From Actinomycetes bacterium (GTDB taxonomy: Bacteria; Actinomycetota; Acidimicrobiia; Acidimicrobiales; JAJZXF01): a stretch of DNA of 39,448 nucleotides. Below the pieces are notes generated by a model. That model had not been told where the DNA came from and did not search any database. It worked only from the letters and a program-made list of their open reading frames with translations. Of the stretch, positions 8,071-29,243 are shown in pieces. The DNA lies in NCBI GenBank assembly GCA_021802485.1, contig JAJZXF010000016.1, forward strand, positions 1 to 39,448. Reading direction: 5' to 3'. The stretch's first letter is position 1, and every line of letters begins with the position of its first letter. Position numbers and translations under genes: made by a program.

Positions 8071-9444
8071 TCAGACCGCTACGTCCTCATCCCCCGGGCT
8101 CATGCCGTACGGATCGAGGCCGTCCTGCGCTCTGCCTTGGACTAGCACCTCGCGGTCCCTGCCACCCCGAGATCTGGCTTGGGGTCGCATCTTCATCTCC
8201 GACAGCAGCACGCCGTACTGCTCAGCGGTGCCCTGAGCAGTAGCCTGCCATGTGAAACGGCCCAGCACCCTCTTGCGCCCAGCCTCTCCAAGGCGATCTC
8301 GCAGCTCCGCAGACCCAAGAAGGTCGCATATAGCAACTGAAAGCGCCTCGTGATCACCTGGCGGAACCAGCAAGCCCGTCTGCCCGCTCGTCCCCACCAC
8401 CTCTGGAAGCGCTCCGCCGGTTGTTGCGACGACCGGCACACCGCACGACATCGCCTCGATGGCCGGCAGCGAGAAACCCTCGTAAAGCGAGGGAACTACT
8501 GCCAATTCCGCCTCCGCATAGAGCCTGACCACCTCCTCGTCGCTGATCCCACTAACGAAGCGAACCGCGTGGCGAATGCCGAGACGCTCAATCACGTTCT
8601 GCGTAGGGCCACCTTCCCGAGGCCTGCCCACGACCACAAGCTCAGCAGGCCGATTTGAGAGCACCTTCGCTATCGCCTCAAGCAGGGGAATCAGCCCCTT
8701 CATCGGAACATCTGCGCTCGCGGTCGTCATGATCCTTCCAGGCACCCGCTGGACCGATTCGAGCGGGCGGAACACAGCATGGTCCACCCCAACCGGCACG
8801 ACGGCCATGCGTAACTTGTCCACCCCCATCTGCGCAGCGATGTCGCGCTTGGACGACTCTGAGACCGTTACCACTCTCGGCAGTTGACGAGCTACCCGCG
8901 CCTGCATCCGCAAGAACCCATACCATCGCCTCAGGGTGAGGCGCCTGCGAAAGCTCGCCGCGTGGGACAGCTCGAGATCTCTGTCCACGGTGATCGGATG
9001 GTGCAGCGTCTCCATCACCGGCCAGCCATCCCGCACCATCCCGAGAAGGCCGGTCCCCAAGCATTGATTGTCATGAACGAGATCAAACTCCCCCCTCCGC
9101 TCAGCAAGGAGCTTCCTTGCCCTCAAGCTGAATGTGAGCGGCTCGGGAAATCCAGCCGCGCACATGATCCCGAACTCGAGCAGGTCCGTCTTCGTGCGGA
9201 ACTCCCTCAGCCGGGGAACACGGAACGGGTCTGGTTCCCTGTAAAGGTCCAAGCTGGGAACAGGAACGAAGCCAACACCGGCATCGAGCACAGGGTATGG
9301 CTGACCAGCAAAGACTACGACCTCGTGACCAAGCGCGACGAGTTCACGAGTCAGATGCCGGGTATAGACCCCCTGCCCACCGCAACGGGGATTACCCCGG
9401 TAGACCAGGAAGGCTATCCTGAGCCGCTCCGAAGCATAACCCAT
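8071..9444 (-). CDS. Glycosyltransferase family 4 (GT-B)
   Basis: A 457-aa GT-B glycosyltransferase. The N-terminal acceptor domain begins RIAFLVYRGNPRCGGQGVYTRHL, with the Gly-Gly-x-Gly loop expected for GT4; the donor domain has VVPVGVDHAVFRP, then RIMTTASADVPMKGL, and the nucleotide-sugar signature EAELAVVPSLYEGFSLPAIEAMSCGVPVVAT with the E-x7-E pair. It would transfer a sugar from an NDP-sugar at the cytosolic membrane face. The ATG at 9444 is preferred because homology begins within ten residues; the frame is open to 9552. It is first in the operon with the methyltransferase and the toroid protein. The last 40 residues, rich in Arg, Gly and Asp, are a variable tail. Confidence 0.87.
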   Translation of the reverse strand: MGYASERLRIAFLVYRGNPRCGGQGVYTRHLTRELVALGHEVVVFAGQPYPVLDAGVGFVPVPSLDLYREPDPFRVPRLREFRTKTDLLEFGIMCAAGFPEPLTFSLRARKLLAERRGEFDLVHDNQCLGTGLLGMVRDGWPVMETLHHPITVDRDLELSHAASFRRRLTLRRWYGFLRMQARVARQLPRVVTVSESSKRDIAAQMGVDKLRMAVVPVGVDHAVFRPLESVQRVPGRIMTTASADVPMKGLIPLLEAIAKVLSNRPAELVVVGRPREGGPTQNVIERLGIRHAVRFVSGISDEEVVRLYAEAELAVVPSLYEGFSLPAIEAMSCGVPVVATTGGALPEVVGTSGQTGLLVPPGDHEALSVAICDLLGSAELRDRLGEAGRKRVLGRFTWQATAQGTAEQYGVLLSEMKMRPQARSRGGRDREVLVQGRAQDGLDPYGMSPGDEDVAV

Positions 9445-9571
9445 GGCCCGAAAGCCTTCACCCGAAAGGCCCTCCAGCGCAAGACGAGAATTCAGTGCTC
9501 GAAGCAACGGGTACCGAATGCTGCCTTGAAGTGCGGAAACGCCCACCCCCACCTGGGCGGATTCAGTGCCC

Positions 9572-10003
9572 TCAGACGCTCAGCGGGTCGCGCCAGCGCA
9601 CTCCAGGAAAGCGCCCGAAGTCACGATCACACGAGCACAACTCCGCGCCGTGCTCGATCGCAAGTGCTGCAAGGTGAGCATCGCTGGTCAAGTTCCCCGC
9701 GGAACCAAACGGGGCGAGAAGCCCTCGCAAGACCTCCGAGTGTCGTTGCGTCGGATGAATGATCATTGCATTTGGCTGATCCAGCCAAGCATCGACTAGG
9801 TCAAGCGCCTCGTCGATGGTAAGTGGATCAACGAATACCGACGCCTGCGTGCTCAAGCGGAGGAAAGCTATGATCACGAGCCAGGAAAACGCGACGGTCT
9901 CCGTACCTGAGAGAATCCTCGAGAACCAGCTGCTCGCGTCCTCATTGCGAGGCGAGGACGCGTCATACGCGTACAACAGCACGTTCGCATCCAAGAGCTT
10001 CAC
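9572..10003 (-). CDS. vapC: PIN-domain toxin of a VapBC pair
   Basis: A 143-aa PIN-domain ribonuclease toxin. The N-terminal strand LLDANVLLYAYDASSP carries the first catalytic Asp; the acidic residues in the middle (IDEALDLVDAWL), the TSDAHLAALAIEHG helix and CSCDRDFGRFPGVRW supply the remaining acidic cluster that binds Mg2+. Known VapC toxins cleave tRNA or rRNA; the target here cannot be told. The start is GTG at 10003, overlapping the antitoxin TGA as GTGA, which shows translational coupling to the upstream vapB. It sits between the glycosyltransferase operon and a gene-poor stretch. Confidence 0.85.
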   Translation of the reverse strand: MKLLDANVLLYAYDASSPRNEDASSWFSRILSGTETVAFSWLVIIAFLRLSTQASVFVDPLTIDEALDLVDAWLDQPNAMIIHPTQRHSEVLRGLLAPFGSAGNLTSDAHLAALAIEHGAELCSCDRDFGRFPGVRWRDPLSV

Positions 10004-10260
10004 TTACGCAACTCCAGCTTGCGGATAACCTCTCCATCCTCGAGCTCACCTGCAAGGAGAAGAGACTTGTCCAGGTTGATCCCTGGTCGCAAGCCCATCG
10101 GCCGCGCGGTTACCCGGAACGTACGACCCCTCGCCTGGGGAGCGGCGAGCCCGGCACGCACTGCATCGTTCAGAACGGTCTTGAACGGTAAGCCTCGGGT
10201 TTGCATCACGGCACGAAGCTTTGCCGCAACATCTGGGTCGAGGGTCACCGTCGTTCGCAT
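10000..10260 (-). CDS. vapB: VapB-type antitoxin
   Basis: An 86-aa antitoxin placed directly before vapC. It begins RTTVTLDPDVAAKLRAVM, a ribbon-helix-helix DNA-binding segment, followed by FKTVLNDAVRAGLAA (second helix), and a C-terminal tail (RPMGLRPGINLDKSLLLAGELEDGE) that in this group wraps the toxin. The ATG at 10260 is chosen because the RHH domain starts there; upstream ATGs at 10269 and 10272 are in frame and would add three or four residues. The stop overlaps the toxin start by GTGA. It is expected to repress its own promoter together with VapC; an inverted repeat lies just upstream. Confidence 0.8.
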   Translation of the reverse strand: MRTTVTLDPDVAAKLRAVMQTRGLPFKTVLNDAVRAGLAAPQARGRTFRVTARPMGLRPGINLDKSLLLAGELEDGEVIRKLELRK

Positions 10261-10265
10261 AGCAT

Positions 10266-10300
10266 GCATCATAGCATCAATGTAGTGCTCATCATGATGC
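10266..10300. promoter_or_regulatory. Inverted repeat upstream of vapB, possible operator
   Basis: GCATCAT at 10266-10272 is mirrored exactly by ATGATGC at 10294-10300, immediately upstream of the vapB start. RHH antitoxins commonly bind such dyads to autoregulate. The half-sites are short and 21 bases apart, so this is tentative. Confidence 0.35.
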
Positions 10301-10843
10301 CACAATCGGCAATCACGTTTGCTCCGATAGAGCCGACGATGCCGGAGATGTCCAAACGCCGGCAGATGAATAGCCTGCCTGGCAGTCATTCCGCCTTCCA
10401 GCTTGTTCAACAGCTCACACCTATCCAGAAGTGGACCACAGCTGGATATCCTGTCATCGGATGCGACCACCCAGCAGCCTCTTTCGAGCACCGACTTACG
10501 AGGCCCGGGTAAATGAGACCACAAACCAATCCGCCTCCCTCGCCGCACGGCGCAGCAGGCAGCACTTCATTGAACACGATGCCAAGAGGTCACTCGGGTG
10601 GCGTTCGTCGGCAGGCACCCAGCGTGCCCGATCGGCCCGTGGGTCACGAGGACGGTTCCGGGCGCGGCCATCCCGGGTGAGCCAATGAAATGAACCCGAT
10701 TTCTGCTAAAACATGCATGTCAAGTAGGCAAGACCTCTTGGGTACGGCTCCCGCGGAGCAACTTGACGAGGTGTGCCGCGGCCAAACTTCGGTCACGGTA
10801 CAGGGATCGGTTCACCAACTGGAGCGCAGTAGCTGGATTGCCG
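10301..10843. other. Gene-poor stretch between vapB and the acyl-CoA dehydrogenase
   Basis: About 540 bases with no convincing gene. The open frames are short, lack family motifs and contradict one another on the two strands. I see no IS end, tRNA or terminator. The stretch probably carries the promoter of the following gene at its right end. Confidence 0.5.
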
Positions 10844-10849
10844 TACAGT
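10844..10849 (+). promoter_or_regulatory. Candidate -10 element of a leaderless promoter
   Basis: TACAGT at 10844-10849 lies seven bases before the GTG start at 10857. This is the distance at which transcription would begin on the start codon itself, as in actinobacterial leaderless genes. No Shine-Dalgarno precedes this GTG, and no clear -35 box is visible. Confidence 0.35.
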
Positions 10850-10856
10850 TGTGTAA

Positions 10857-12674
10857 GTGCTACCCGATTATGCAGAACATGAAGAGGCTATAGGGCTCAA
10901 CTGGTACGAGGCGGACCCCAACCTCGCATTCATCCTCGATCACTTGATCCCTGAGGAGAAGTACCGCTCGTTCGCCGAAGATCATTCCTGGACCTTTGGC
11001 GAGCTCGTTGGCAAGTCACTTGCAGCCCGAGCTGAGCAAACGGACAAACACGGCCCAGTGCTCGTGCGCTACGACCGCTGGGGCGAGGAGATCTGCAAGA
11101 TCGAGCACCACCCCACCTGGCTCGCGAACAAGGCCGATCTGATCCGCAACGGATTCGTCGGCCTGCCAGCCCATGCTGGCCATCCGGTGCCACATGTGCT
11201 CATGTCGTCCCTGTCCTACCAGGTGTGCCAGGCAGAGACCGCTGCCTACTGCGCACTCGGGATGACAGTGGAAGCAGCGGAGATGATCAACCGCTACGCT
11301 CCAGACGCAGTCCGGGAGGAGTTCCATCGCAGGCTTTGCTCGCTTGACCCCACCGAGGCGTGGGAAGGCGGGATGTTCCTCACAGAACGCCAGGGGGGCA
11401 GCGACGTCGGAGCGAATACCACAGCGGCATTCCCAGATGGGGACGAGTGGCTCATCCGCGGTGACAAGCATTTCTGCTCCAACGTGGACGCGGATCTTTT
11501 CATCATCCTCGCAAGACCAGTTGGAGCGCAGCCAGGACCAAAGGGTCTCGCGACCTTCGCGATGCCGCGACGCCTTCCAGACGGATCTTCCAATGCGTTC
11601 CACATCAAGCGCCTGAAGCCCAAGCTCGGCACGATCGGGGTGCCAACAGCAGAGGTGACCCTCAGCGGCGCAAGAGCATGGCTGCTTGCACCACAGCATG
11701 CACCCGCAGTGGAGTCACTCGCTGACGCAGACGGCTGGGATCCAGCCCGGGACGGCAAGGGCCTGCGCCGCATGATGGAGATGGTGGACGAGAGCCGTTA
11801 CGGAGTGGCGCTGATGGGCCTTGGTATACAGCGGCGATCGTTCCTAGAAGCTTCCATCTACGCTGCACGGCGCCAGCAGTTCGGAGAGCGCATCGACGCC
11901 TACCCACTTGTCAGGGAGACGCTCGTAGACATGCTCGTCGATCTGGAGGGCGGCGCTGCTATGACATTTGAGTGTGCGGCAGCTGCCGACACCGCGGACG
12001 GCATCCGAACGCCAGAGTCCGGACTCGCTGAACGCGAAGAAGCAAGCCTGCTCAGACGCATCCTCATCCCTCTTGCAAAGATGCGCGCAACGAGGAACGC
12101 CATCAACACCGCAAGCGCGGCACTGGAAGTCCTTGGTGGCAACGGGTACATGGAAGACTGGCCGCTCGCTCGCCAGCTCCGTGACGCTCAGGCAAACACG
12201 GTTTGGGAAGGCACCGACAACATCCTCTGCATGGACGTCCTTCGGGCCATGCGCAAGGAAAAGGCACACGCTCCGCTGCTCGCCAGGCTGGAGCGCACGC
12301 TCGATGCATCACCGCAGCACCCGTTGCTGGAAGACCCTGCTAACGCACTTTTCGCCGCCCTCGGCTCACTCAACGAATCCCTCGATCACCTTGCGATGGC
12401 GCCACAGGACGTCGTCAATCTTCAAGCCAGGAGGTTCGCTGAACTTCTGGCAGACATAGCCGAGGGGACTCTACTGCTGGAAGAGGCGTCGTGGTCGCTT
12501 GATCGCGATGGGGATGCGCGCAAAGCAGTCATAGCCCGCAGGTTTGCCAAGAAGAAGTTCGGCTACACGCCTTCCCGCGGGATAACCGACCCGGATCGGA
12601 CTGTCATTGACCTCTTCGAGCCACTGGTCCGCTACGGGAGGATCGAGCCAGACGCTCTGAGCGGCTCAGCGTAA
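10857..12674 (+). CDS. Acyl-CoA dehydrogenase, large AidB-like type
   Basis: A 605-aa flavoprotein of the acyl-CoA dehydrogenase family, much longer than the usual 380-400 aa and organised like the AidB / long-ACAD branch. Visible are the FAD-binding segment GGMFLTERQGGSDVGANTT (near residue 170), a beta-barrel domain with WLIRGDKHFCSNVDADLF, and the C-terminal helical domain with ALEVLGGNGYMEDWPLARQLRDAQ followed by NTVWEGTDNI (near 445), where the Glu of WEGT is at the position used as catalytic base in isovaleryl-CoA-type enzymes. It has an extra C-terminal domain of about 150 residues. It could oxidise an acyl-CoA or act as an alkylation-response protein; the sequence does not decide. The start is GTG at 10857, possibly leaderless. 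Confidence 0.85.
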   Translation: MLPDYAEHEEAIGLNWYEADPNLAFILDHLIPEEKYRSFAEDHSWTFGELVGKSLAARAEQTDKHGPVLVRYDRWGEEICKIEHHPTWLANKADLIRNGFVGLPAHAGHPVPHVLMSSLSYQVCQAETAAYCALGMTVEAAEMINRYAPDAVREEFHRRLCSLDPTEAWEGGMFLTERQGGSDVGANTTAAFPDGDEWLIRGDKHFCSNVDADLFIILARPVGAQPGPKGLATFAMPRRLPDGSSNAFHIKRLKPKLGTIGVPTAEVTLSGARAWLLAPQHAPAVESLADADGWDPARDGKGLRRMMEMVDESRYGVALMGLGIQRRSFLEASIYAARRQQFGERIDAYPLVRETLVDMLVDLEGGAAMTFECAAAADTADGIRTPESGLAEREEASLLRRILIPLAKMRATRNAINTASAALEVLGGNGYMEDWPLARQLRDAQANTVWEGTDNILCMDVLRAMRKEKAHAPLLARLERTLDASPQHPLLEDPANALFAALGSLNESLDHLAMAPQDVVNLQARRFAELLADIAEGTLLLEEASWSLDRDGDARKAVIARRFAKKKFGYTPSRGITDPDRTVIDLFEPLVRYGRIEPDALSGSA

Positions 12675-21751: not shown

Positions 21752-21921
21752 CACATGCCTGCAGATAAGCCCTTGTCCCCAGGATGCCCTAGAATTCGAA
21801 AGGTGCTCCTGGTGCAACAATGTGAAGAAATAGCGTTTCGAGCCCTATGGGGGGCGTGCTTGAGGCAGCATCTGCCCCGTGAGCCTCGGGGTAGTTGCTG
21901 CCATCTCGACGCCTTGGCGCA

Positions 21922-22917
21922 ATGACGCGCTCTTCACGGCTAGGCGCATCTCTTGGGTTGAACTCGGTCCTCGTCGGGCTGCTGGCCGGCTTCGGGCTGT
22001 GGGCGCATTCGCTCGCCCTCCTTGCAGATGCGGGGCACAACCTCGCAGATGTTGCCGCTATCACAGGCACATGGGTCGCGGTGAGGTGGGCAATGAGACC
22101 ATCGACGCAAGCGCGGTCCTTTGGCTACCACAGGGGAACCATCCTTGTGGCACTCGCAAATGCAACCTTGACGATAGCGGTGACCGCGGTCATCGCCTGG
22201 GAGGCGGCCCACAGGATCAGCCACCCGGGGTCCGTCAACGCCGTAGCGATGGTGGGCATCGGAGCGGTTGCACTCGCAGTCAACTTGGCGTCGGTCCTCC
22301 TCCTGAACGACCGCTCTGAGGATCTCAATATGCGCACGGCCGCCTGGCACATGGCCGCAGATGCCTTCGCTGGCCTTGGGGTCATTGCGGCAGGCGTCGT
22401 GATAATGACAACGACCGGCTTGCAGGTGATAGACCCCGCTGTCTCACTCGGGATCGGTGCCGTTATCGTTATCCAATCCTGGAAACTCGTACGCGAGAGC
22501 GTTGACGTCCTCTTGGAGTCAACTCCCAGTGATATGGATCTGTCGCATCTCACCTCGGCAATGGAGGCGGTGCGGGGGGTTTCAGAGGTCCATGACCTGC
22601 ACGTGTGGAGCCTCTCCAGTGAGGTGAGAGCGCTCTCTGCGCACCTCGTGCTTTCCGGGCATCCCAGCCTGGAGGGTGCCCAAGCGGTCGCAGACGAGGT
22701 CAAGGGTGCGATATCGAAGCCATTCTCCATCAGCCATGCGACCCTCGAGACCGAGTGCGAGAGATGCGTCGACGCGGCCGAAGATCCATGCGGCGTCGAC
22801 ACCGCCTTGCACGCGAATGCACACAGGAACGAGGTATCGTCTGCACGCGATGATGGTACGGCGGCGGGTTCTCATCAGCGGAAGGGTGCAAGGCGTCTTC
22901 TTCCGCGACACCTGTAG
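21922..22917 (+). CDS. Cation diffusion facilitator (CzcD/ZitB-like) metal exporter
   Basis: A 331-aa CDF transporter exporting Zn2+ or similar ions in exchange for protons. TM2 carries LLADAGHNLADVAAI and TM5 carries AAWHMAADAFAGLGVI, the paired HxxxD metal-binding motifs of zinc-type CDF proteins. Six TMs are followed by a C-terminal cytoplasmic domain with VSEVHDLHVWSLSSEVRALSAHLVL. The ATG at 21922 is chosen over the GTG-initiated extension at 21895 because homology begins there. The last 22 residues overlap the acylphosphatase gene in another frame and look non-native (QRKGARRLLPRHL), so an old frameshift may have lengthened the protein. Confidence 0.88.
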   Translation: MTRSSRLGASLGLNSVLVGLLAGFGLWAHSLALLADAGHNLADVAAITGTWVAVRWAMRPSTQARSFGYHRGTILVALANATLTIAVTAVIAWEAAHRISHPGSVNAVAMVGIGAVALAVNLASVLLLNDRSEDLNMRTAAWHMAADAFAGLGVIAAGVVIMTTTGLQVIDPAVSLGIGAVIVIQSWKLVRESVDVLLESTPSDMDLSHLTSAMEAVRGVSEVHDLHVWSLSSEVRALSAHLVLSGHPSLEGAQAVADEVKGAISKPFSISHATLETECERCVDAAEDPCGVDTALHANAHRNEVSSARDDGTAAGSHQRKGARRLLPRHL

Positions 22918-23119
22918 GCGAGAAGCGACCCAGCTCGGTGTCGCTGGAGGTGCGAGGAATCTCACAGACGGTCGGGTCGAGGCGACGTTCGAGGGAGAAC
23001 AAGATGCGGTCGAGCGCTTACTCGAATGGTGCGCCCACGGTCCTCCGAGGGCTACGGTAACCGAGGTCGAGATCTTCGATGAGCCTCCATGTGGGGAAAA
23101 GGGATTCGTGATCGCATAA
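22850..23119 (+). CDS. acyP: Acylphosphatase
   Basis: An 89-aa acylphosphatase that hydrolyses acyl-phosphate bonds in the cytosol. The signature SGRVQGVFFRDTCRREA (residues 10-26) supplies the phosphate-binding loop and catalytic Arg, and GGARNLTDGRVEATFEG supplies the catalytic Asn. The C-terminal strand VTEVEIFDEPP completes the ferredoxin-like fold. Two adjacent ATGs (22850, 22853) can start it. The first 68 bases lie within the end of the CDF gene in another frame. The next gene begins 22 bases after its stop. Confidence 0.9.
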   Translation: MMVRRRVLISGRVQGVFFRDTCRREATQLGVAGGARNLTDGRVEATFEGEQDAVERLLEWCAHGPPRATVTEVEIFDEPPCGEKGFVIA

Positions 23120-24179: not shown

Positions 24180-25376
24180 GTGGATGAGCACCTCGTCCTG
24201 GAATCGCTTGGCTCGCACTTCGGAATCGACGGCAAGCTGGCAGGTTTCAGGCAAACAAACGGTGGCCATGTGCACGACACCTACATTGCTACATACGAAT
24301 TTTCCGGCTGCCGAAGACGCTATGTGCACCAGCGCATCAGCCCGGTTTTCGCAGATGTGACAGGCCTGATGTCGAATGTGGTCATGATCTCTTCACACCT
24401 CGAAAAGAAGCTTGCGGAACCCAGGCGCAGCACGCCAAGCCAAGGACGGCGCGCACTGCGAGTGATCAAGACGCGCTGGGGCAGGCACCACTGGGAGGAC
24501 CCCGACCAGAGAGCGTGGCGCACGTTCGAGTTCATCCCAGGCGCTCATTCATGCACAGACGTGGACACCCCTTCACAGGCGTACGAAATTGGCGCCGCGT
24601 TTGGAAATTACCTCGCGCTTCTCGACGACCTTGGCACAACGGTCAGCTCCAACACCCACGCAGCAGACTTGACCGCTCGCACAGGCGCTGCCAGCAGCGC
24701 CTGTGCGACCACAACGGCCCTCTTCGAGACCATCCCTCGGTTTCACGATCTGGATCGCTACCTCGCGAACCTGGAGAACAGCGTCACAGAAGATGCTTGC
24801 GCAAGGGTCACATCAGCTGGAGTCGCGACGACCTTAGAGGAGGTGCTTCGCATGCGCTGGATAGCCCGCGAGGTGCGCAAGAAGATCAGCCTCGGCGACC
24901 TTGCCTCACGCCCGGTTCACAACGACTGCAAGTCTGCCAATGTCCTCTGCGACGACATCACCGGTGAATGGGTCTGCGTCATCGACCTCGACACCACAAT
25001 GAACGGGTACGCACTGCACGACTTCGGAGACATAGCGCGGACTGCGGCAACACCCGCAAGGGAGGATGAACGAGATCCTGAACTCTCAAGGCTCGACCTG
25101 ACGCTGTTCAACGCGGCAGCACGAGGCTACTTGGAGGCTTGCGCGCATCTGCTTTCTGAACCCGAGCTTGACAGCTTGCCCCTTGGGGCTATCGCGATGG
25201 CCTACGAGGCCGCAGTGCGCTTCCTTACGGACTTCCTGAACGGCGACACATACTTCAAGGTGGACTACCCGGATCACAATCTGGTGCGATGCAGAGCGCA
25301 GCTCGCGCTTGCGAACTCCATGATCAAGGACGCGGATCGCATGTCAGCAATCGTCGCGAATCTGCAGGCTTGCTGA
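24180..25376 (+). CDS. N-acetylhexosamine 1-kinase-like phosphotransferase (APH fold)
   Basis: A 398-aa kinase of the aminoglycoside-phosphotransferase fold. The catalytic loop SRPVHNDCKSANVLCDDITG and the metal loop VCVIDLDTTMNGYALHDFGDIAR match the HNDxKxxNVL ... VIDLDTxMxGxxxxDFGD pattern of the N-acetylhexosamine 1-kinase (NahK) family, which makes GlcNAc-1-P or GalNAc-1-P. The N-terminal lobe has GFRQTNGGHVHDTYIATY (nucleotide loop). Near the middle, FEFIPGAHSCTDVDTPSQAYEIGAAFGNYLALL resembles the same family. The start is GTG at 24180 with a weak ribosome site. Its 3' end meets the GH20 gene 12 bases away, head-on. Together with that gene and the nucleotidyltransferase it forms a plausible hexosamine-salvage set (inference). 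Confidence 0.78.
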   Translation: MDEHLVLESLGSHFGIDGKLAGFRQTNGGHVHDTYIATYEFSGCRRRYVHQRISPVFADVTGLMSNVVMISSHLEKKLAEPRRSTPSQGRRALRVIKTRWGRHHWEDPDQRAWRTFEFIPGAHSCTDVDTPSQAYEIGAAFGNYLALLDDLGTTVSSNTHAADLTARTGAASSACATTTALFETIPRFHDLDRYLANLENSVTEDACARVTSAGVATTLEEVLRMRWIAREVRKKISLGDLASRPVHNDCKSANVLCDDITGEWVCVIDLDTTMNGYALHDFGDIARTAATPAREDERDPELSRLDLTLFNAAARGYLEACAHLLSEPELDSLPLGAIAMAYEAAVRFLTDFLNGDTYFKVDYPDHNLVRCRAQLALANSMIKDADRMSAIVANLQAC

Positions 25377-25388
25377 GCTCGCGTTTTC

Positions 25389-27188
25389 TCAGAGTTCCCC
25401 TGGTCCAAACCCCAGCGATATGTCTGGCCCCGCCCAACCCGGATCTGTCTCGCCGGTCTCGTAACACTCTCTCAGGTGCTCCAGCCACGCGACGCTTCGC
25501 GCTAGACCACCGCCGCGATTGCGCGCCAGCCACAGCTCCCTGTGGTGCTCGATCAACGGTGCGAGCTCTCGCGCGAAGTTGCCCCGTTGGGGCGCGGGCA
25601 ACGAAGAAAGGGTGCCATCGCCCTCCAAACGGGCTATCCCATCTCGTGCTAGCAACGATACGAGCGCGGTAGCGCTACGGAGCTCGTCAACTGCAAGCAC
25701 CGCGTCTTCGGAACGAGGCTGCGCTGAGTCAAGGCTCGCCACCGCGTGAACAAGGTACTCCTCCACCCTGTTCAGATCTTGGACGCTCAAGCCAGCAGTA
25801 AAGCCAACCCCCAAGGCGAGCTGTGGAAAGTACAGGTGCAATACGAGCGTTGAAAGATTAGGAAACTGGCAGCTCAAAAGGTCATATGTGTCTCCAAGCG
25901 CAACAGCGGCACCCCCCATCTCCATCGACGGGTCGTCGAACACATGCAACGAGAGCGCAGTTGCAAGGTCGATTGAGCGGTTCTGCTCCCAGCACCACGA
26001 CACACCAGCTCCGTACGCGAAGCCCGGATAGCTGATTGGCAGATACTGCAGATGCCCCATGTCCCCCCAATCGGTGATCAAGTAGCCTGTCGCTCCACCT
26101 CCAAGGCCTTCCTTTGCGGCCTTGCTGCAGTTGCGAACCATGTTCCCAGTCCTACCGAGAATGCTCAGCCAGCTAGAGGTACCCGAGCAGACCCATGCCT
26201 CCCTGCCCTCTGCTGAAAGTGCAGCAAGCTTCTCGGCAAACGGATGCCAGTCCTCATAGCCCCACTCGCAGACAACGACTCCCTCTGGAAGCTGCGAGAT
26301 CATGGACGGGTCGGAGGAGATACGATCGCCCCAGACCAGCATCGTCTTGGTATCAAGCTCATCCAAGGCCCGTAGATCGCGCATCCACGACAGGTACTCA
26401 TTCGCTGCCTCAGCGGGCAGCTCCCAGGGCTCGTCGAGACCCACATGGAACCTCCGGCTTTCGAAGCAGCTTCCGAGCTGACCAAGGAGGTCTCGCACCA
26501 GCGCGAGAGAGCCTGGGTTCGAAGGGTCAAGCGTGCTCGCCGGATGGCTCAGGCCGAACCCATCCACACGCCCCGCTGGCGCGATCGCAAGATCGTGGTA
26601 TCTCGGATGCCACAGCCAGCGTTCCATGTGGCCGAGGGTGTTCTGGTTCGGCACCAGCTCGACGAAGCGTGCTCTGCAGAATGCGTCCAGGTGCAACACC
26701 TCCTCTGGAGTGAGAGCGCTTGCAGCAGCCCAGACCTCTTCATGCCCTTCGTAGGCGAAGGTGTGCTCCATGTAAAGCTGAAGTTGGTTGATCTTCCAGG
26801 ATGCAAGAAGGTCCACGAGAGACTCGAGGGTGGAAAGCGCTGGGACCTTGTCCCGAGAGATGTCGATCATCACGCCCCTCACCGGGAAGTCGGGCCAGTC
26901 CTCTATCCTGCAGCTCGGCAATCCATGCGGGTTGAGGCGCCTCAACTGAGCGAGCGTGCAGCCTCCGTAGAACGCGCCGGCCTCATCGGTCGCAGTGATC
27001 ACGATCCGGTCACTCGCGACCTCGAGCACGTACCCCTGGCTCCGGCCCTTGCTACGAGAATCAGGAGATGCGTCTATAAGAACTTGCTCGTCGCGATCTT
27101 CGACGAGCTCATCTCCAGCCTTCACGGACCGGGGTCGGGGAAGAAGCCCATCCAGCCTCTGCTGCGCGCGCCGCGATCCAGAACTCAT
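25389..27188 (-). CDS. Glycoside hydrolase family 20 beta-N-acetylhexosaminidase
   Basis: A 599-aa GH20-type enzyme. A small N-terminal domain (about 15-105) with SDRIVITATDEAGAFYGGCTL precedes the TIM barrel that starts FPVRGVMIDISRDKVPALSTL. The catalytic Asp-Glu pair is in RFHVGLDEPWEL (near residue 270), corresponding to the HxGxDE motif; the Glu is the acid and Asp assists the substrate acetamide. Then come KTMLVWGDR, VVCEWGYE and ITDWGDMGHLQYLP, with Trp residues lining the sugar site. It has no signal peptide, so it would act in the cytosol on imported or recycled oligosaccharides. The ATG overlaps the stop of the GNAT gene (ATGA). It is the last gene of its operon. Confidence 0.85.
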   Translation of the reverse strand: MSSGSRRAQQRLDGLLPRPRSVKAGDELVEDRDEQVLIDASPDSRSKGRSQGYVLEVASDRIVITATDEAGAFYGGCTLAQLRRLNPHGLPSCRIEDWPDFPVRGVMIDISRDKVPALSTLESLVDLLASWKINQLQLYMEHTFAYEGHEEVWAAASALTPEEVLHLDAFCRARFVELVPNQNTLGHMERWLWHPRYHDLAIAPAGRVDGFGLSHPASTLDPSNPGSLALVRDLLGQLGSCFESRRFHVGLDEPWELPAEAANEYLSWMRDLRALDELDTKTMLVWGDRISSDPSMISQLPEGVVVCEWGYEDWHPFAEKLAALSAEGREAWVCSGTSSWLSILGRTGNMVRNCSKAAKEGLGGGATGYLITDWGDMGHLQYLPISYPGFAYGAGVSWCWEQNRSIDLATALSLHVFDDPSMEMGGAAVALGDTYDLLSCQFPNLSTLVLHLYFPQLALGVGFTAGLSVQDLNRVEEYLVHAVASLDSAQPRSEDAVLAVDELRSATALVSLLARDGIARLEGDGTLSSLPAPQRGNFARELAPLIEHHRELWLARNRGGGLARSVAWLEHLRECYETGETDPGWAGPDISLGFGPGEL

Positions 27189-28132
27189 GCGATCCTCTCA
27201 CTATTCCGTGCGATGGCCTCAGCTCCACCGGATCCCGCCAGGGATGGAGCCGTCAAGCGCTTTCGGTACATTATGTAGGTTTCGATTATCGTAGCTCCAA
27301 CGCGCGCATAAGGTGACATGACGCTGACCCACGACACCCGCACCTCATGACGACCGTGCTGGCGAAGATGCGCCAGCGCGGCGTCTAGAACCCGCGCACC
27401 AGCGCCCTTGCCCATGAGGTCCGGACGAACGGCCACGGGGCCAAGCAGGCCGTAACGGTTCACGTCTACCGCGCAAAAGCCGGTGATGCCCTCGTCGTCC
27501 TCACCGAGGAACAGTGTCGATCTGTCCAGGGCCTTCATGACCTCTTTCTTCCAGAAACACCAGTGGGCATCCATGAACGCCACAAGCCGGCTGCGATCGG
27601 CCTCGGTGGCCAACCTCGCCCCATCACTGCGAAGGCCGTCGAGTGGGTCCAGGTCGATCGCCATGTCAAAGTTCACCTCAGCACGCTCGTAGTGATATCG
27701 CTCGAGAAGGCACTGCATCGGTGTCCAGGCGACTGAAACGCCTGGGAAAAGGTAGTACGGGGCATCTGCTCCAATAGTGATCGTGGAAGCACCGGCGAGA
27801 TCCTGCTCAGCTGCCACAAGAAGAGACCTGCCGTGGCCATTGCGTTGATGAGCGGGGTCAACGACGAGCAGCTTCACAAAGCCGCGGCGCTCACCATCGG
27901 GACCCCGGTCCTGAAGAGCCGTAGCTACCACCCCTACTTGCGGATCTCCACGAACACACGCAGGTTCGTCATCAGCAAAGAGGCAACCAAGGAGCTCCTC
28001 TGCTCCGGGAGGTTCGGAGAACGCCCTGTCGCAGAGGTCCGCGATCTCATCAACGCGATCGGCCTCCAGAACCGGATGCGGCGTTCTGCCCAGGGGTGCC
28101 TCGTGCGACACCGCCGTCGCGGTCCCTTCCAC
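27185..28132 (-). CDS. Tandem-domain GNAT acetyltransferase
   Basis: A 315-aa protein with two GNAT domains. The first has GFVKLLVVDPAHQRNGHGRSLL (acetyl-CoA P-loop, near residue 85) and the second GPVAVRPDLMGKGAGARVLDAALAHLRQHG (near 245). The core of domain 2 ends in ETYIMYRKRL. Start: GTG at 28132, or TTG at 28135 one codon earlier; both lie just after the stop of the nucleotidyltransferase gene. Its TGA overlaps the GH20 start as ATGA. The acceptor is unknown; since it is placed between sugar genes it may acetylate hexosamine or glucosamine-type amino groups (inference), though GNATs also act on proteins. Confidence 0.82.
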   Translation of the reverse strand: MEGTATAVSHEAPLGRTPHPVLEADRVDEIADLCDRAFSEPPGAEELLGCLFADDEPACVRGDPQVGVVATALQDRGPDGERRGFVKLLVVDPAHQRNGHGRSLLVAAEQDLAGASTITIGADAPYYLFPGVSVAWTPMQCLLERYHYERAEVNFDMAIDLDPLDGLRSDGARLATEADRSRLVAFMDAHWCFWKKEVMKALDRSTLFLGEDDEGITGFCAVDVNRYGLLGPVAVRPDLMGKGAGARVLDAALAHLRQHGRHEVRVSWVSVMSPYARVGATIIETYIMYRKRLTAPSLAGSGGAEAIARNSERIA

Positions 28133-28138
28133 CAATGC

Positions 28139-29086
28139 CTACGCCAGCACTCTGTGCCCGGCCCAGAGTGGGTCCGGAATCACGCCTTGTGAGACCAGTG
28201 TCTCAACCTCCTCACGCACTGCGGTGAGGTCCGCTCCATGAGTCACGCCGATACAACGCCCCTGCGTCGCCAGCACCCGAACCTGCTCACCCAGCGGATC
28301 CGCGACCATCTCTCCGACCACATCGGGCAGGAGCAACTCCCTGCCGTCTCTCTCGCCTCCGGCCGCGATAAAGCGGTCGAACGCAGCTTGCAGCACGCTA
28401 AAGATCGACGGCAGGAAACCCCACATGTTCACCGATACGAGCTCGTCTCCCGTAAGGGAGGCCTCGGAATCATCCGTGACAGCACAGAAGCTGCCGTCAC
28501 CGGCAACCGTGATGGTGCGCTCGGTAATCGCTACCAGGAATCCCTCCTCGCTCTGTTCGCAAATGGCCCTCTTCACAGGACCCTGGCCGACAATCGTGTT
28601 ACGAAGCCGGAAGCCCACGAGCGCATGGGTACGCACCTCGTCGGGAGCGCGACAGAGGTGCTCATAGAGAAGGCGATACGAGGCGGTTCCGTACAAGTCG
28701 TCTGCGTTGACCACACCGAACGGAGCGTCTAGGAGGGCACGAGTCGACAGCACTGCCGGGGCTGTGCCTAGGGGCGCGCGACCGCCAGCAGACCCCTGGT
28801 CGCCCGGAGCACCATAGGCAAGCGAAGCTCTTGCAGCATCCTGGCGAACCAGCTCCACATCGAGATTGGTTGGCCAGCATCTCTTGACGTGGTAGCCAAG
28901 CGTAGCTTCGATCTCTGGCCGGACGACTAGGACTACCGAGCCAAACCCTGCGTCTATTGCGTCGCGAACAGACAGATCGATGATTGCCTCCCCACGCGCT
29001 CCTATTGGCGCCAACGGCTTCAGGCCGCCGTAGCGACGACCCAGACCCGCAGCCAGGATCACGAGGACAGGTCTTTCAGATTTCAT
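28139..29086 (-). CDS. NTP_transferase-type sugar nucleotidyltransferase
   Basis: A 315-aa sugar-1-phosphate nucleotidyltransferase. It begins MKSERPVLVILAAGLGRRYGGLKPLAPIG, the LAAGxGxRxGxxKxLxPIG signature that binds NTP and metal; FGVVNADDLYG near residue 130 supplies the Asp pair, and LVGFRLRNTIVGQGPVKRAICE and LVSVNMWGFLPSIF shape the sugar pocket. The ATG at 29086 is fixed by GGAGG nine bases upstream; the open frame extends to 29308, but that extra part is an ISKra4 remnant. It would activate GlcNAc-1-P or GalNAc-1-P to a UDP-sugar (inference from the neighbouring kinase). It is the first gene of the operon with GNAT and GH20. Confidence 0.85.
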   Translation of the reverse strand: MKSERPVLVILAAGLGRRYGGLKPLAPIGARGEAIIDLSVRDAIDAGFGSVVLVVRPEIEATLGYHVKRCWPTNLDVELVRQDAARASLAYGAPGDQGSAGGRAPLGTAPAVLSTRALLDAPFGVVNADDLYGTASYRLLYEHLCRAPDEVRTHALVGFRLRNTIVGQGPVKRAICEQSEEGFLVAITERTITVAGDGSFCAVTDDSEASLTGDELVSVNMWGFLPSIFSVLQAAFDRFIAAGGERDGRELLLPDVVGEMVADPLGEQVRVLATQGRCIGVTHGADLTAVREEVETLVSQGVIPDPLWAGHRVLA

Positions 29087-29243
29087 GGGGTAACGCCTCC
29101 TTGTGAAGCTTCTCGAATACTCTAGAGGACAGCACCGTTCAGCAATTGCCAACAACGTTGCACCGTCAAACCCGAGCATGCCAGCTGAGCAAGAAACAGC
29201 TCGTAATCTGCACATCTCGCAATCCCAAGTCCGAAAACGCCAG

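Follow-up and report, generated by a model that had tools for sequence, protein, structure and literature searches.

Four neighbouring genes in a 39,448-nucleotide stretch of DNA (the window) from a member of the order Acidimicrobiales encode a NahK-type kinase, a GH20 beta-N-acetylhexosaminidase, a tandem GNAT protein and a 3pnn-family sugar-1-phosphate nucleotidyltransferase. Judged by homology and gene neighbourhood, these four enzymes would together salvage GlcNAc oligosaccharides, partly de-N-acetylated, to UDP-GlcNAc in the cytosol, a reading to which we assign a probability of roughly 0.55.

Gene layout and enzyme families

The kinase gene lies on the forward strand (24180–25376; GTG start at 24180, stop ending at 25376, 398 aa). 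The other three genes occupy the reverse strand in the order nucleotidyltransferase, GNAT, GH20 (29086–25389). Ahead of the nucleotidyltransferase gene (28139–29086; ATG at 29086, stop at 28139, 315 aa), the sequence reads as a Shine–Dalgarno motif, AAGGAGG (29096–29102, reverse strand). The gap to the tandem GNAT gene (27185–28135; TTG at 28135, stop at 27185, 316 aa) is 3 nt with the TTG start and 6 nt with a GTG start, and an ATGA overlaps the GNAT stop with the start of the GH20 gene (25389–27188; ATG at 27188, stop at 25389, 599 aa). The GH20 and kinase genes are convergent, with 12 nt between their stop codons. All four open reading frames and the motifs described in an earlier sequence-only reading were confirmed by inspection of the sequence. 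Its three-gene operon also held, but with a different membership: the genes are those for the nucleotidyltransferase, GNAT and GH20, whereas the earlier list had wrongly taken in the kinase. Promoter and terminator scans with consensus models gave nothing above chance, and PHROGs returned no match. The family assignments were far above chance (NahK, E = 1e-46; GH20, 1e-12; GH20b, 1e-9; 3pnn, 1e-47).

The kinase is a NahK homologue and a predicted N-acetylhexosamine 1-kinase. A phmmer comparison with the Bifidobacterium longum NahK structures 4ocu, 4wh1 and 4ocj gave E values of 1e-46 to 1e-47 over the full length, and a profile of the 17-member kinase family had NahK as its sole strong match, along its whole length (E = 1e-121). 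The protein carries the motifs HNDCKSANVL and IDLDTTMNGYALHDFGD; the HND and DLDT catalytic motifs are conserved in the family, as are the RFLTD and GDTYF regions. NahK itself accepts both GlcNAc and GalNAc (PMC6264712). In one relative (G043) the kinase lies within an open frame of 997 aa; a fusion was considered and rejected: the frame is GC-rich, and Pfam sees the kinase domain alone in its 827-aa ORF.

In the hexosaminidase, Pfam identified GH20 (1.1e-12) and GH20b (1.2e-9) domains, both above cut-off. The catalytic pair D252–E253 and the active-site arginine R104 are invariant across 19 aligned GH20 proteins, and the HVGLDE motif is present. No signal peptide was visible on reading the N-terminal sequence. 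AlphaFold models built from two-sequence alignments reached pLDDT values of 40 for GH20 and 42 for GNAT and were rejected as a basis for fold searches.

The GNAT protein contains two GNAT domains (Pfam). Its profile found 5kga/5kf1 (8e-13) and 4zm6, the structure of RmNag (2e-11), as the best solved relatives, both ahead of mycothiol synthase. The former, named 'predicted acetyltransferase' in the PDB, we take to be C. acetobutylicum GlmA. W269 is invariant in all 16 GNAT relatives and aligns with the sugar-stacking Trp835 (W835) of RmNag; of the other residues of the RmNag sugar pocket, D834 aligns with S268, and W735 and T738 lack a confident alignment. In RmNag, a beta-N-acetylglucosaminidase is joined to a C-terminal tandem GNAT that acts as a glucosamine N-acetyltransferase; bacterial enzymes of this activity re-acetylate the GlcN that ends peptidoglycan fragments, which are then cleaved (PMC4680927). 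The GNAT is thus most likely a glucosamine or glucosaminide N-acetyltransferase and a putative member of the pathway, and the view that its place in the middle of the operon is an oddity was not borne out. Two points count against the salvage reading: the similarity to GlmA is distant (1e-12), within a superfamily that is promiscuous, and S268 stands where RmNag has D834.

The nucleotidyltransferase matches 3pnn_A, a 'conserved domain protein', over its full length (E = 1.5e-47). Its family profile again finds 3pnn (2e-97), followed by GalU-type UTP--glucose-1-phosphate uridylyltransferases (1e-12), and this proximity points to UTP as the probable donor. It carries LAAGLGRRYGGLK and combines homology to UTP-using pyrophosphorylases with the LAAGxGxRxGGxK signature, as expected of a uridylyltransferase. 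Against NCBIfam, it gave no GlmU match (TIGR01173) above cut-off. A second 3pnn-type branch, with ~32–38% identity to the window protein, is common across the order outside any GH20 setting (L083, L084, L085, L086, L088, L090 and others).

Conserved neighbourhoods and host metabolism

Conservation of the neighbourhood, which had been proposed as a check, proved strong across the order. In a census of 198 genomes, two genes were scored as neighbours if they lay no more than 2 kb apart, and each total refers to the genomes with both: GH20 adjoined the kinase in 8 of 10, GNAT in 13 of 18 and the nucleotidyltransferase in 12 of 16; kinase and GNAT adjoined in 7 of 10. The chance expectation is roughly 0.002 per pair. 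One genome, G171 (L053), has all four genes in a single adjacent run on one strand, overlapping in the order nucleotidyltransferase (8113–8964), kinase (8901–9908), GNAT (9908–10759) and GH20 (10759–12474). Kinase, GNAT and GH20 also run together, co-directional and adjacent or overlapping, in G029, G078, G113 and G196, and the nucleotidyltransferase runs with GH20 in families f39, f43 and f45. The opposite-strand kinase, remarked on earlier as unusual, is real in the window but gives way to one-strand runs elsewhere; its strand in the window is thus a local arrangement of the conserved module. Against the salvage reading, several genomes hold GH20 with GNAT, or GH20 with the nucleotidyltransferase, where no kinase was detected; the module is therefore not an obligate one. 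Kinase and nucleotidyltransferase genes are also paired outside the order: in Defluviitaleaceae (L035, L036) they stand next to a GalE-like SDR, and in Holophagaceae (L028) their companions are an SDR and a SIS-domain gene, with a transport permease alongside.

No sugar transporter is present in the window cluster, which also counts against the salvage reading. A zinc-type cation-diffusion-facilitator (CDF) gene recurs close to the nucleotidyltransferase and GH20 genes in several of the order's families (window 21895–22917, forward strand; L017 5674–6804; L019 1901–2839; L057 10514–11554; L064 5474–6391; L065 10775–11776; L066 6931–7845; L094 6914–8008; L095 5747–6679). It directly follows the nucleotidyltransferase gene in G060 and lies downstream of it in G102. 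In the window, the CDF gene and a methyltransferase-like gene just ahead of the kinase flank an acylphosphatase gene (22676–23119, forward strand; Pfam 8e-23).

Searches of the host genome, which is 97% complete, targeted chosen families. NagA and GH3 (NagZ) gave no match and MurQ nothing above cut-off, and one GH18 was found. The sole NagB-family gene was rejected as NagB: it is a 6-phosphogluconolactonase gene (pgl) beside zwf. Taken together, the lack of NagA, GH3/NagZ and an above-cut-off MurQ, with the NagB-type gene being pgl, makes the GlcN-6-P route look absent, in keeping with a direct conversion into an NDP-sugar. The host may have a free-GlcNAc route via another kinase.

The proposed route and its alternatives

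The conserved neighbourhoods and the kinship of the GNAT to GlmA and RmNag lead to our best reading. The substrates would be GlcNAc oligosaccharides that have lost some of their N-acetyl groups, for example fragments of peptidoglycan or chitin. The tandem GNAT would restore the acetyl group on non-reducing glucosamine ends or on free glucosamine, and the cytosolic GH20 would next release terminal GlcNAc. The kinase would then use ATP to form GlcNAc-1-phosphate, which the nucleotidyltransferase would convert with UTP to UDP-GlcNAc. By analogy, the coupling of a GlcN N-acetyltransferase to a beta-N-acetylglucosaminidase offers a precedent, being an established logic (PMC4680927). The sequence-only reading had proposed that N-acetylhexosamine is released, phosphorylated at C1 and converted to an NDP-sugar without GlcN-6-P. 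Homology, the neighbourhoods and the host gene content support that core; it needs revising in that the GNAT most likely belongs to the pathway and in its comparison with Bifidobacterium.

An alternative, possible but on balance unlikely, is that the nucleotidyltransferase, perhaps with the GNAT, serves mainly in de novo UDP-GlcNAc synthesis in place of GlmU, the kinase and GH20 merely feeding the same GlcNAc-1-P pool. Neither the host genome nor its sister has a clear GlmU match (best 73 bits; none above 74), compared with a clear GlmU in 31 of 40 genomes surveyed in the order. A 3pnn-type nucleotidyltransferase occurs in 7 of the 9 GlmU-lacking genomes versus 7 of the 31 GlmU-bearing ones (Fisher p = 0.004; p = 0.022 without the two genomes of the host genus). 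The GlmU homologues in these 31 genomes mostly align to TIGR01173 over positions 2–344 of 452. The two that we inspected (L080 1396–2586 and L081 1378–2580) end before the acetyltransferase region and are closely followed by prs; some other GlcN-1-P acetyltransferase must therefore exist in the order. Against this alternative, GlmU is kept alongside module genes in G009, G029 and G038, the tandem GNAT was found in only 33 of the 198 genomes, and the genomes are drafts. Several GlmU-lacking genomes, moreover, hold the second 3pnn-type branch: in the tree, the nucleotidyltransferases of the GlmU-lacking families f27, f28, f34 and f35 form a separate branch outside GH20 context. That the 3pnn family has taken over from GlmU is therefore a possibility short of being established. 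It is similarly doubtful that the 3pnn-family enzyme, with acetylation by a separate GNAT, replaced bifunctional GlmU in this lineage, the cell-wall precursor UDP-GlcNAc then being made by the salvage-operon enzymes. Given the link to the missing GlmU, simple complementation could address this question, which concerns a precursor essential to the cell wall.

We regard as improbable a muramic-acid recycling of the AmgK–MurU type, in which the kinase would act on MurNAc and the nucleotidyltransferase would form UDP-MurNAc. The chemistry, a 1-kinase plus a nucleotidyltransferase, is identical, the host has no MurQ match above cut-off, and GH20 could free GlcNAc from muropeptides, GH3/NagZ being absent; however, the kinase profile fits NahK at its whole length, and the GalE-like epimerase beside the kinase in relatives is ill-suited to MurNAc. 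Still less probable is a Bifidobacterium-like catabolism of GalNAc or LNB-type sugars leading to glycolysis. The dual specificity of NahK and the epimerase adjoining the kinase–nucleotidyltransferase pair in distant relatives would suit it, yet the Pfam-annotated neighbours in the window cluster include no GLNBP (GH112) or other phosphorylase, GalT, GalE or sugar ABC importer, and a GlcN acetyltransferase indicates GlcN/GlcNAc chains. That the kinase is an unrelated APH-fold enzyme, for antibiotics or other small molecules, placed by chance beside a hexosaminidase operon with which it is convergent and not co-transcribed in the host, is scarcely credible given its NahK match and its co-directional runs with GNAT and GH20 in the five genomes above.

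Comparison with known systems

The proposed salvage route shares elements with several characterized or predicted systems. The Bifidobacterium LNB/GNB route proceeds through GLNBP, NahK, GalT and GalE (PMC8106489) and has in common with the window a homologous anomeric kinase and a UDP-sugar product. It relies on the phosphorylase GLNBP and on GalT, whereas the window has a GH20 hydrolase, a 3pnn-family nucleotidyltransferase and an extra GNAT. The label 'Bifidobacterium-type' hence suits the kinase only, GalE-like genes appearing only in distant relatives. Pseudomonas AmgK–MurU, a cell-wall recycling system, likewise places a 1-kinase before a nucleotidyltransferase and bypasses GlcN-6-P (PMC5371407); it differs in that the window kinase is NahK-like, its proposed substrate is GlcNAc rather than MurNAc, and the product would enter at UDP-GlcNAc.

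RmNag (PMC4680927) and clostridial GlmA pair a tandem GNAT with an N-acetylglucosaminidase, acetylating and then cleaving. RmNag is a GH3 fusion, while in the window the hydrolase is a GH20, the two functions sit on separate genes that overlap, and both are coupled to NahK and to a nucleotidyltransferase. GalY, a member of the NTP_transferase family encoded beside galE, is a predicted replacement for GalT (PMC5583593); it offers a parallel in that a nucleotidyltransferase would stand in for an enzyme of uridylyl exchange, but it belongs to the galactose pathway, and the likeness drawn here is one of predicted role. The kinds of enzyme are already known, and it is their combination that appears new: the literature searched describes none that unites a conserved repair acetyltransferase with a nucleotidyltransferase that is neither GalT nor GlmU. 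A likely function can now be proposed for 3pnn, a nucleotidyltransferase family of known structure and no name, and for a tandem GNAT. The four-enzyme aminosugar route would place repair acetylation before hydrolysis, analogous to HGSNAT in lysosomes.
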